Assembly: GCA_016218715.1 (NCBI GenBank)
Contig: JACRDG010000096.1
Span: 1-64,000, forward strand
Length of the DNA: 64,000 bases
DNA from: Desulfomonile tiedjei
GTDB taxonomy: Bacteria > Desulfobacterota > Desulfomonilia > Desulfomonilales > Desulfomonilaceae
Direction of reading: 5' to 3'
Below are positions 3,711 to 38,674 of the stretch, in pieces. Under the pieces are notes generated by a model. The model did no database searches, was not told the origin of the DNA, and saw nothing but the letters and a program-made list of their open reading frames with translations. The position numbers were made by a program, and so were the translations under genes. Position 1 is the stretch's first letter; every line of letters begins with the position of its first letter.

Positions 3711-4811
3711 CTAGGTCATGTCCCACTTGCTCTCGCCCGTGCCACTAATACCACGGACGAACAGTGCGAAGTCGTCAGGGTTGGATGCCGCGGCCAGAGC
3801 CGTTTCGTACGTGACGAAGTTGCTCTTGAACAACTGCATGAGCGACTGGTCGAAGGTCTGCATGCCATAGGCCACATGTCCTTCCGCGATGGCGTCGCGG
3901 ATTTCACGGACCCTCTTTTCGTCGCTGACGCATTCCCTGATGCGCGCGGTGGATATGAGGACCTCCACTGCGGGGACGCGTCCCTTGCCGTCACCCTTGG
4001 GCAGAAGCCTCTGGGAGATAACCCCTTTGATGATCCCCGACAACTGGAGCCGGATGGAATGCTGATGCTCGATGGGGAACGCTGATATAACGCGGTGGAT
4101 CGTCTCGGTTGCGTCCAACGTGTGCAAGGTACTGAACACCAGATGGCCCGTCTCTGCCGCGAGCATGGCGATCTCGATAGTTTCGAGGTCTCGCATTTCA
4201 CCGACCAGGATGACGTCGGGGTCTTCGCGCAAGGCCGCGCGCAAGGCATTCTGGAACGTCAGCGTGTCCTGCCCGACTTCCCGCTGGTTGATGATGCTCT
4301 TCCGGTCCCGGTGCAGGAATTCGATCGGGTCCTCGATGGTCATGATGTGGCAGTTCCGAAACGAATTTATGTGATTGATCATGGCCGCCAGAGTCGTGGA
4401 TTTTCCGGAGCCGGTGGTCCCGGTCACGAGAACCAGGCCGCGGTTCTCCATGGCGATTTTCTCGATCACAGGGGGGAGGTTGAGATCCTTGAGCATCGGC
4501 GGATCGGACGGAATGGTACGAAAGACCATCGCAATGGAGTCTCGCTGCGAAAAAACATTGACCCTGAATCGAGCCAGCTTGGAAACTCCATAGGCCATGT
4601 CCAACTCTTTGGTCTTGGTAAAGATCTCCCGCTGCCGCTCGTTCATGATCGAGAGGGCTATCCGCTTGATCTCGTCAGGCGTGAGTCGCGCTTCGCCTCT
4701 CATGGGAGCCAGTTGGCCGTTGACGCGAATCACTGGCGGGAGGGGGACCTTCAGATGGATGTCAGAAGCCCCCTGGTCCAACGCTTTTCTCAATGTGCCA
4801 TCAAGATCCAT
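3711..4811 (-). CDS. pilT: Twitching motility retraction ATPase PilT
   Basis: This is a hexameric cytoplasmic ATPase that depolymerises type IV pili. The protein of about 366 residues begins with the PilT N-terminal fold ([15 protein letters not shown]). It has Walker [11 protein letters not shown], the Asp box, Walker B ILVGEMRD, and the His box HLVFSTLHT. The late part ([12 protein letters not shown]) is typical of PilT. I chose ATG 4811 because GGAGACGGAT precedes it. A GTG at 4823 in the same frame is the alternative. The start lies inside the recA 3' end, with an 11 bp overlap, so the two genes are probably translationally coupled. Confidence 0.95.
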
Positions 4812-9158: not shown

Positions 9159-9568
9159 CAGTTGCAGTTCTCAACCCGCGTTGGATCTTTCGGCATGGCC
9201 AGCGGTGCCGATGGCCGGTAGCCTGTTCGCGTCCGTGACCTCTTCCTGCAGCTCGGCCGCCTTGCTCAAAGCGTTCTTTGGGCCCGGCCGGTTTACCACG
9301 AACCCCCCGGACTGTTAAATCGTCAGAGCAGTTTCCTCGCTTTTCTGTTCTCTAAAAGAGAGGCGGGCGCTTTGCCGCGCAGACGGTGCCGTCCATTTCA
9401 GATTACATCTTTACGCGATCTTTACGCCAGCTTCACCAAGCCTTGACCCTTCGATGATTATCTTTGCTTCAGACGTGACGGAACCCTCAGACTCCAGCAA
9501 CAACGGAGGGAGCCCTTCACCTGGACACGCAAATTTCTCGGCTGCGGCCGCACGGAGGAGGCACTGAT
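9159..9568. other. Non-coding gap upstream of msrA
   Basis: About 410 bases separate the small secreted protein from msrA. I see no gene that follows local codon habits. The 9088-9318 frame is a shadow. No strong promoter pair was found. A GGAGGAGG ribosome-binding site for msrA lies at about 9555-9562. Confidence 0.5.
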
Positions 9569-10480
9569 ATGGAAACCACCAGGCGTTCAGCCGGAGGCGT
9601 CGCCCGACGGGCAGATCCGGCGAGAACCATGAGCCGGCGGGTCACTATACCGGCGTTTACCGCGCTGGCTGTGGCGATACTTGCTTCTCTGCTATACGGA
9701 GTTAATCTCAAAGAGAAGGCGGGAACGGATGTCGAATCCATCCAACAGAGGGGAACCATGCTGCAAACAACACAAAAGACGACCGATCGCGCGGGAATAC
9801 CGCCGATTGATGCAGTGGCGCTGAAAGAGTTCGAGACTGCCACCTTTGCCCTGGGCTGATTCTGGGGACCGGATGCCCAGTTCGGGGCTATCGACGGCGT
9901 TATTCGGACTCGGGTGGGATACGCGGGCGGCACGAAGAAAAACCCCACGTACTACAGCTTGGGGGATCATACCGAGACCATCGAAATCGATTACGATCCG
10001 ACCCTGATTTCGTACGAGCAACTCCTGGAGATCTTCTGGAGAAGCCACGATCCGACCCAACGGTCGTGGTCTCGACAGTACATGGCTGCTGTCTTCTACC
10101 ACAACGAAGATCAGAAGAGACTGGCCCTCGAGACGCGCGAACGCGTGCAAGCAAAATTGCCTACTCCTCTATCAACTCAAATTCTGCCGGCTACCGAATT
10201 CCATATGGCCGAAGCGTACCATCAGAAGTACAGGCTGCGACAAGCTCCCGATCTGATGGATGAGTTCACTCGCATTTATCCGAACAACGACGATTTCGTT
10301 AATTCTACGGCGACCGCGCGCGTCAACGGCTACTTATACGGGTACGGGACTGCCGAAGGTGTGGAGGCAGACGTGGATCGTCTCGGCTTGTCCCCGAACG
10401 CGAGCATGAAGCTTCGCGACCTGGTAAAGAACCGACGCTCCGGCTCGAGGCTTCTCGAACGGTTACGGTTGCATCTCTGA
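9569..10480 (+). CDS. msrA: Selenocysteine-containing, membrane-anchored peptide methionine sulfoxide reductase MsrA
   Basis: The frame reads through one TGA at 9857-9859, giving a 303-residue protein. The family motif GCFWG appears as G-U-FWG, so selenocysteine replaces the catalytic cysteine. The rest of MsrA continues in the same frame: GYAGGTKKNPTYYSLGDHTE, EIFWRSHDPT, QYMAAVFYHNE, FHMAEAYHQKY. A hydrophobic segment at about 28-44 suggests export or anchoring. The whole protein contains no cysteine, so there is no resolving thiol. The role is repair of methionine-S-sulfoxide, here probably in the periplasm. GGAGGAGG sets the start. tRNA-Sec lies 5 kb away. SelA/SelB are not in the window. 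Confidence 0.93.
9857..9880 (+). promoter_or_regulatory. UGA-Sec codon with SECIS-like hairpin
   Basis: Directly after the in-frame TGA (9857-9859), CTGGG at 9862-9866 can pair with CCCAG at 9876-9880, leaving a 9-base loop GACCGGATG. Bacterial SECIS elements lie inside the coding sequence just 3' of the UGA and bind SelB through an apical loop with exposed G. Position and shape fit. The exact SelB contact bases are inference. Confidence 0.7.
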
Positions 10481-10613: not shown

Positions 10614-10850
10614 ATGACGATAAGAATCAAGGCCCGAGAGTTTGCCAAGGATGTGAGGTCCGCGATGGACGACGACAGCCTGATGGCCAAGTACGGCCTC
10701 AATCCTGATCAGCTTCAGCGCATATTCGAGCAGATGGTCGACATGGATCTGCTCTCGGAGGAACACATCAAAGTCAGAGCCCTCCTTTCCGAAAGCCTGA
10801 TCTCCCGGGCGTTCCTCGAATACGAAGAAGATCGTACCCCCATCGCGTGA
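10614..10850 (+). CDS. Small protein, unknown function
   Basis: This 78-residue, mostly helical, acidic protein (AREFAKDVRSAMDDDSLM, YGLNPDQLQRIFEQMVDMDL) contains no cysteines. ATG 10614 was chosen because GGATGGAG precedes it. The frame is open back to 10518 without a ribosome-binding site. The helix-rich layout and the LNPDQLQRIFEQMVDM stretch look like a small regulatory or adaptor protein, but I recognise no family. It sits between msrA and a family A palindrome. Confidence 0.6.
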   Translation: MTIRIKAREFAKDVRSAMDDDSLMAKYGLNPDQLQRIFEQMVDMDLLSEEHIKVRALLSESLISRAFLEYEEDRTPIA

Positions 10851-15422: not shown

Positions 15423-15520
15423 GGAGGTGGTAGAGTCCTGGTGGGCTCCGCGGTCTTCAAAACCGTAAGCAGGGCGCTAGTACCGTCCTGGGTGGGTTCG
15501 ATTCCCATGCACCTCCGCCA
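15423..15520 (+). tRNA. selC: tRNA-Sec (anticodon TCA)
   Basis: This is a 98-base gene with encoded CCA. The acceptor arm begins GGAGGTG and ends CACCTCC before discriminator G. The D arm has a 6 bp stem (33-38 with 43-48 of the 154xx block) and a 4-base loop, diagnostic of tRNA-Sec. The anticodon loop CTTCAAA carries TCA at 15457-15459. The long variable arm CAGGGCG/CGTCCTG has a 7-base loop. The T arm is 5 bp around TTCGATT. The eighth acceptor pair would be G15430 with G15509, a mismatch. This tRNA decodes the UGA in msrA. Confidence 0.97.
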
Positions 15521-38486: not shown

Positions 38487-38674
38487 GAGGAGCCCCCGCA
38501 ATCGGCCGTTCAGACAGAACTTTTGAACCTGGTTTCCCAGGTGGGCTCCTCCTGGACTGCTTTAGGCTTCCTGCTTCATGGCAGGCATGCTCACCACAGC
38601 CATTTTCGGCTCCCTTTTTTTGAGTGTTGGCTCAAAAAATTGCTGTCCGTATCGAACCGCGCAGGGGCTCCTTC
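38487..38674 (-). ncRNA. ssrS: 6S RNA
   Basis: The 188-base span closes with GAAGGAGCCCC (5') against GGGGGCTCCTC (3'). The conserved core GGTGAGCATGC, a short hairpin (CTGC/GCAG) and GAAGCCTAAAGC match the central-bubble side of enterobacterial 6S RNA. The apical part has CACCTGGGAAACCAGGTTC. It lies 4 bases downstream of the zapA stop, the conserved zapA-ssrS position. 6S RNA binds the housekeeping RNA polymerase and lowers transcription in stationary phase. Ends are estimated from base pairing. Confidence 0.92.

Follow-up and report, generated by a model that had tools for sequence, protein, structure and literature searches.

The Sec-MsrA gene of Desulfomonile tiedjei encodes a methionine-S-sulfoxide reductase of the Clostridium oremlandii type, with one selenocysteine (Sec) and no cysteine, and is probably the source of two proteins; this reading is given a probability of about 0.75. 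Judged from the sequence, an exported form and a cytosolic form are probably both made from the one gene. The window is the whole stretch of DNA that was analysed, 64,000 nucleotides (assembly GCA_016218715.1, contig JACRDG010000096.1, positions 1 to 64,000). The features concerned are as follows.

9554..9561, + strand: Shine-Dalgarno sequence GGAGGAGG of the first start (ATG 9569), duplex energy -12.1 kcal/mol.
9569..10480, + strand: Sec-MsrA gene, long form, 303 aa, Sec at residue 97.
9635..9709, + strand: N-terminal membrane helix, residues 23-47 (AlphaFold2 model; hydrophobicity 2.16).
9747..9755, + strand: Shine-Dalgarno-like sequence AGAGGGGAA of the second start, duplex energy -8.2 kcal/mol.
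9758..10480, + strand: predicted short form, 240 aa, from internal ATG 9758 (Met64); the ATG is conserved and is the sole start in the relative G005.
9836..10243, + strand: MsrA catalytic domain PF01625 (PMSR), residues 90-225 (Pfam).
9857..9859, + strand: Sec codon TGA replacing the catalytic Cys codon, in frame, ...FALGUFWGPD...
9872..9892, + strand: SECIS hairpin GAUGCCC-AGUUCG-GGGC(U)AUC (covariation in 56 sequences; fold of the window copy).
10283..10393, + strand: helical domain typical of selenoprotein MsrA, PF20939, residues 239-275 (Pfam and family scan).
15423..15520, + strand: tRNA-Sec gene, anticodon TCA, 5 kb from the Sec-MsrA gene.

Gene and predicted protein

As read from the window sequence, the frame is opened by ATG 9569 and closed by the stop codon TGA 10478-10480. 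The long-form translation (METTRR...FALGUFWGPD...RLHL) has 303 residues and zero Cys; the description of a 303-residue product without any Cys in the earlier note is literally true of the window protein. The in-frame TGA which that note had placed at the catalytic Cys of GCFWG was confirmed at 9857-9859, inside an open frame. PMSR and MsrA_helical are the only domains returned by Pfam. The PMSR match (4.2e-43) runs uninterrupted across the in-frame TGA, and PF20939 scores 26.7 bits against a cut-off of 23.7; the latter domain is present in 56/59 family members scanned. The AlphaFold2 model, built from 59 family members, is characterized by a mean pLDDT of 87.6, values mostly >94 in the catalytic and helical domains, and a low-confidence linker joining the membrane-like helix (23-47) to the catalytic domain.

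Relatives were collected by a scan of a species-genome collection and a phylum-level family search, which together yielded 85 non-redundant TGA genes; their records carry the labels Deltaproteobacteria/Desulfobacterota, Nitrospirae, Chloroflexi, Planctomycetota and others. Cys is lacking after Sec in 58 of the 85; some Cys, often near the C-terminus, is present in the other 27. Many Nitrospirae Sec-MsrAs bear a terminal Cys about 198-199 residues past Sec, often as CPL or CP (loci L049, L051, L061, L073, L094, L095, L096, L108, L111, L116, L121), and some of these have further Cys at +165 and +190. The C-terminal Cys is possibly a late-acquired resolving Cys.

Just downstream of the Sec-MsrA gene a 78-residue protein is encoded at 10614-10850, with no match in Pfam. 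The window also contains a 6S RNA gene at 38489-38670 on the minus strand (Rfam RF00013, 119.7 bits).

First start and export signal

The membrane helix of the window protein is preceded by a basic stretch. According to the positive-inside rule, a basic stretch before a helix places the downstream domain outside the cytoplasm; the catalytic domain of the long form would therefore be extracytoplasmic. A hydrophobic N-terminal segment is found in 63/85 relatives, and lipobox-like or twin-arginine-like N-terminal motifs in 32 of the set (pattern match). Substitutions in the upstream segment are distributed over the codon positions as 77/66/126 (p 1e-5), and its pN/pS, summed over related pairs, is 0.49 vs 0.18 in the catalytic domain. 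By these substitution patterns the upstream segment evolves as coding sequence, i.e. is translated.

The same evidence bears on whether the enzyme is cytosolic only, with translation truly beginning at the internal ATG and the hydrophobic frame ahead of it being untranslated or a relic. This is unlikely in view of the third-position excess and the pN/pS of the upstream segment, the hydrophobic cores and export motifs of the relatives, and the very strong Shine-Dalgarno sequence at the upstream ATG of the window, even though the C. oremlandii enzyme is without the extension, conservation is higher at the internal start and the Shine-Dalgarno sequence of the first start varies. The upstream start is strong in 35/63 relatives vs a background of 42%, and is less consistent than the internal start; in one Nitrospirota (Nitrospirae) group the constraint on the upstream segment is weak. 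Because of this variability and weak constraint, some species may make little of the long form or have lost it.

Second, internal start

The conserved ATG 9758 lies past the membrane helix and before the catalytic domain, and is preceded by AGAGGGGAACC (-8.2 kcal/mol). An in-frame ATG occurs 25-40 codons before Sec in 77/85 genes, exactly at -33 in 37, but in only 20/80 and 17/89 cases in adjacent windows of equal length. The median Shine-Dalgarno energy at the internal ATG is -8.2 kcal/mol, vs -3.0 for 177 downstream in-frame Met codons (p 6e-23; the p-values ignore the relatedness of the relatives and are rough). The core motif is found in all three reading phases (36/17/9), a pattern that points to selection on the nucleotides and makes amino-acid conservation an unlikely cause of the Shine-Dalgarno sequence. 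Such an internal start site is present in 41/50 Sec-MsrAs vs 1/26 other exported single-helix proteins of the same contigs. Both starts have strong Shine-Dalgarno sequences in the window (-12.1/-8.2) and in locus L012 (-10.7/-8.1). In the relative G005 the upstream extension is absent, and the gene starts precisely at the Met equivalent to 9758.

An exported enzyme only, with the long form as sole product and the internal ATG there by chance, is improbable. The first start of the window does have the stronger Shine-Dalgarno sequence, and export signals are common among relatives, but the internal ATG greatly exceeds the controls in both placement and Shine-Dalgarno strength, and the G005 relative has the short form only. 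The content of the genome also speaks against it: the sole other MsrA and the sole MsrB are one fusion protein (MsrAB) with a signal-peptide-like N-terminus, so that the cell would be without a cytosolic MsrA if the short form were absent. The apparent periplasmic location proposed in the earlier note is upheld as regards a membrane-bound or exported form, which is indicated by the N-terminal helix and by the signals of the relatives; an exclusively periplasmic enzyme is probably wrong, given the second start with its Shine-Dalgarno sequence after the helix.

In G005 (locus L014) the short-form-only gene at 1432-2124 is directly followed by an exported Cys-MsrA gene from 2142. An in-frame ATG between the signal and the catalytic domain is also found in some exported Cys-MsrA genes (L019, L020, L033, L034, L037, L040), in most cases with a strong Shine-Dalgarno sequence. 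The layout with two starts may therefore extend to further Msr genes.

Selenocysteine insertion

The window gene is a true selenoprotein gene. Besides the tRNA-Sec gene, the genome encodes SelB (above the cut-off), SelA and SelD; the search for selA, selB and selD proposed in the earlier note thus found each of them. Reassignment of UGA to another residue is not needed, since tRNA-Sec and SelA/B/D are present. The TGA, which the note had suggested looking for in relatives, is kept in three further genomes of the same family (59-63% identity) and in the 85 genes at large, these three included; among the homologues from the same searches only three have a Cys codon at the Sec position (L054, L114, L124). 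The selenoprotein reading is supported by the machinery, by this conservation and by a covarying SECIS, and with selB present and the TGA kept in relatives neither refutation foreseen in the note applies. SelD is itself encoded by a selenoprotein gene, with an in-frame TGA in KTAGUASKMS (locus L042, G000:C85:75991-76908).

Covariation was analysed in 56 ungapped sequences downstream of UGA. Columns 17-22/28-33, which form the hairpin at 9872-9892, contain 13 compensatory double-change cells vs 4.5 +/- 1.5 in shuffled alignments (0/500 reach 13), with a covariation score of 0.154 vs 0.094 +/- 0.012. The paired arms often change together, as in GAUGCCC/GGGCAUC (L119) vs ACUCCC/GGGAGU (L057). The loop starts 19 nt past UGA and contains an invariant G. 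A second, 5-bp hairpin (CUGGG/CCCAG) lies nearest to UGA and is probably the one that the earlier note had seen in SECIS position. It exists, and is 99.6% paired in the 56 relatives, but has zero double compensatory changes among them, whereas the next hairpin covaries; its pairing is largely dictated by the FWG...Q codons. It is probably not the recognised SECIS, although RNAalifold nevertheless favours it on energy.

A pseudogene whose catalytic codon was hit by a nonsense mutation, for which only the Cys MsrAB of the same genome could be cited as making the Sec-MsrA copy dispensable, can be dismissed as extremely improbable, given a TGA that 85 non-redundant genes from several phyla share, with the frame open before and after it, a catalytic-domain pN/pS of ~0.18 in relatives, the complete Sec machinery and the covarying SECIS.

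Comparison with known enzymes

Among proteins of solved structure, C. oremlandii MsrA (CoMsrA) variants are closest in sequence, colinear with the window protein over residues 88-286 (2.7e-57); CoMsrA is closest by fold as well (E 1.6e-22, TM 0.91 on target). Identity to CoMsrA (PDB 4LWJ, 4LWK, 4LWL, 4LWM, 4U66) is 44-45% over ~200 residues. CoMsrA has one catalytic Sec and no Cys, requires its helical domain for activity, and is reduced by glutaredoxin, not thioredoxin (PMC4333827, PMC4479559). The catalytic Sec, the complete lack of Cys and the C-terminal helical domain are common to both proteins (PMC4333827). The window gene combines the traits of the C. oremlandii type: Sec at the Cys of GCFWG, Sec machinery and SECIS, PF20939, and no resolving Cys. 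The missing resolving Cys, which the earlier note had presented as unusual, is no novelty, as CoMsrA is already known as a Cys-free Sec enzyme (PMC4333827, PMC4479559). A protein of 209 residues with Sec at 16, CoMsrA is devoid of a membrane segment; the window gene differs by ~80 extra residues, which include a membrane helix, and by its second start.

A precedent is Neisseria PilB, reported to be made from one gene as a periplasmic form and, by internal initiation, a shorter cytosolic form (PMC6210582), although PMC6372556 did not observe the latter. As in PilB, an export signal is combined in the window gene with an internal in-frame start, here with its own Shine-Dalgarno sequence, before the catalytic domain. 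The likeness lies in the working mode of a dual-compartment Msr, and no homology of the N-termini is claimed. PilB is a Cys enzyme with a resolving Cys, a fused MsrB and its own thioredoxin-like domain as reductant, whereas the window protein has Sec, no Cys and no attached reductant; neither the N-terminal thioredoxin-like domain of PilB nor its fused MsrB was found in the window protein by Pfam.

Sec-MsrA is listed in a deltaproteobacterium, e.g. Syntrophobacter fumaroxidans, in table 3 of PMC1794560, and the bacterial Sec-MsrA motif is given as GUFWG/H in PMC13188914. In the available parts of these two selenoproteome surveys export signals and a second start both go unmentioned, unlike in the account of the window gene given here.

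Reductant and gene neighbourhood

Because a resolving Cys is lacking, the oxidised Sec would need an external thiol. Several proteins encoded in the genome may supply it: a soluble glutaredoxin (L149:2593-2880, CSHC), a glutaredoxin-like protein whose N-terminus is signal-like (L046, CPHC), and DsbD-like proteins, of which one contains a thioredoxin domain. None of these candidates is genetically linked to Sec-MsrA. A dedicated reductant gene beside Sec-MsrA was not found at the window locus or as a conserved neighbour in relatives. What recurs most clearly beside the gene in relatives is MsrA(B)/MsrB (15 loci), as a rule immediately upstream and in the same orientation; the window gene lacks such a neighbour. 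The largest neighbour cluster in relatives is sensor-kinase-like, with scattered positions. In L083 and L084 (Chloroflexi records, ~3800-4645) MsrB is fused in frame upstream of Sec-MsrA.

Proposed mode of action and significance

We infer the use of both starts, the topology, the catalysis and the reductant. Sec would be inserted by SelB at UGA 9857-9859 via the hairpin at 9872-9892. Initiation at 9569 would give a helix-anchored form whose catalytic domain is extracytoplasmic; a soluble cytosolic form would result from initiation at 9758. In either, Sec would attack methionine-S-sulfoxide, and the oxidised Sec would depend for its reduction on a distinct thiol protein, which by analogy would be a glutaredoxin. 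It is fairly likely that the two-start design serves methionine repair inside and outside the cytoplasm across several phyla, the exported Cys-free form being recharged by an extracytoplasmic thiol carrier.

Cys-free Sec-MsrA is already known; the predicted exported-plus-cytosolic two-start design, which is well supported at the sequence level, is new. In the literature searched, mainly open-licence with few subscription journals, neither export nor a second start is reported for a Sec-MsrA. Should both starts be in use, start-site annotation in the Sec-MsrA family could misplace the protein in either direction. One gene would then give rise, in several phyla, to a selenoenzyme outside the cytoplasm and a cytosolic twin, which would make it well suited for testing how internal initiation sends one protein to two compartments, and would raise the question of which reductant serves a Cys-free selenoenzyme outside the cytoplasm.
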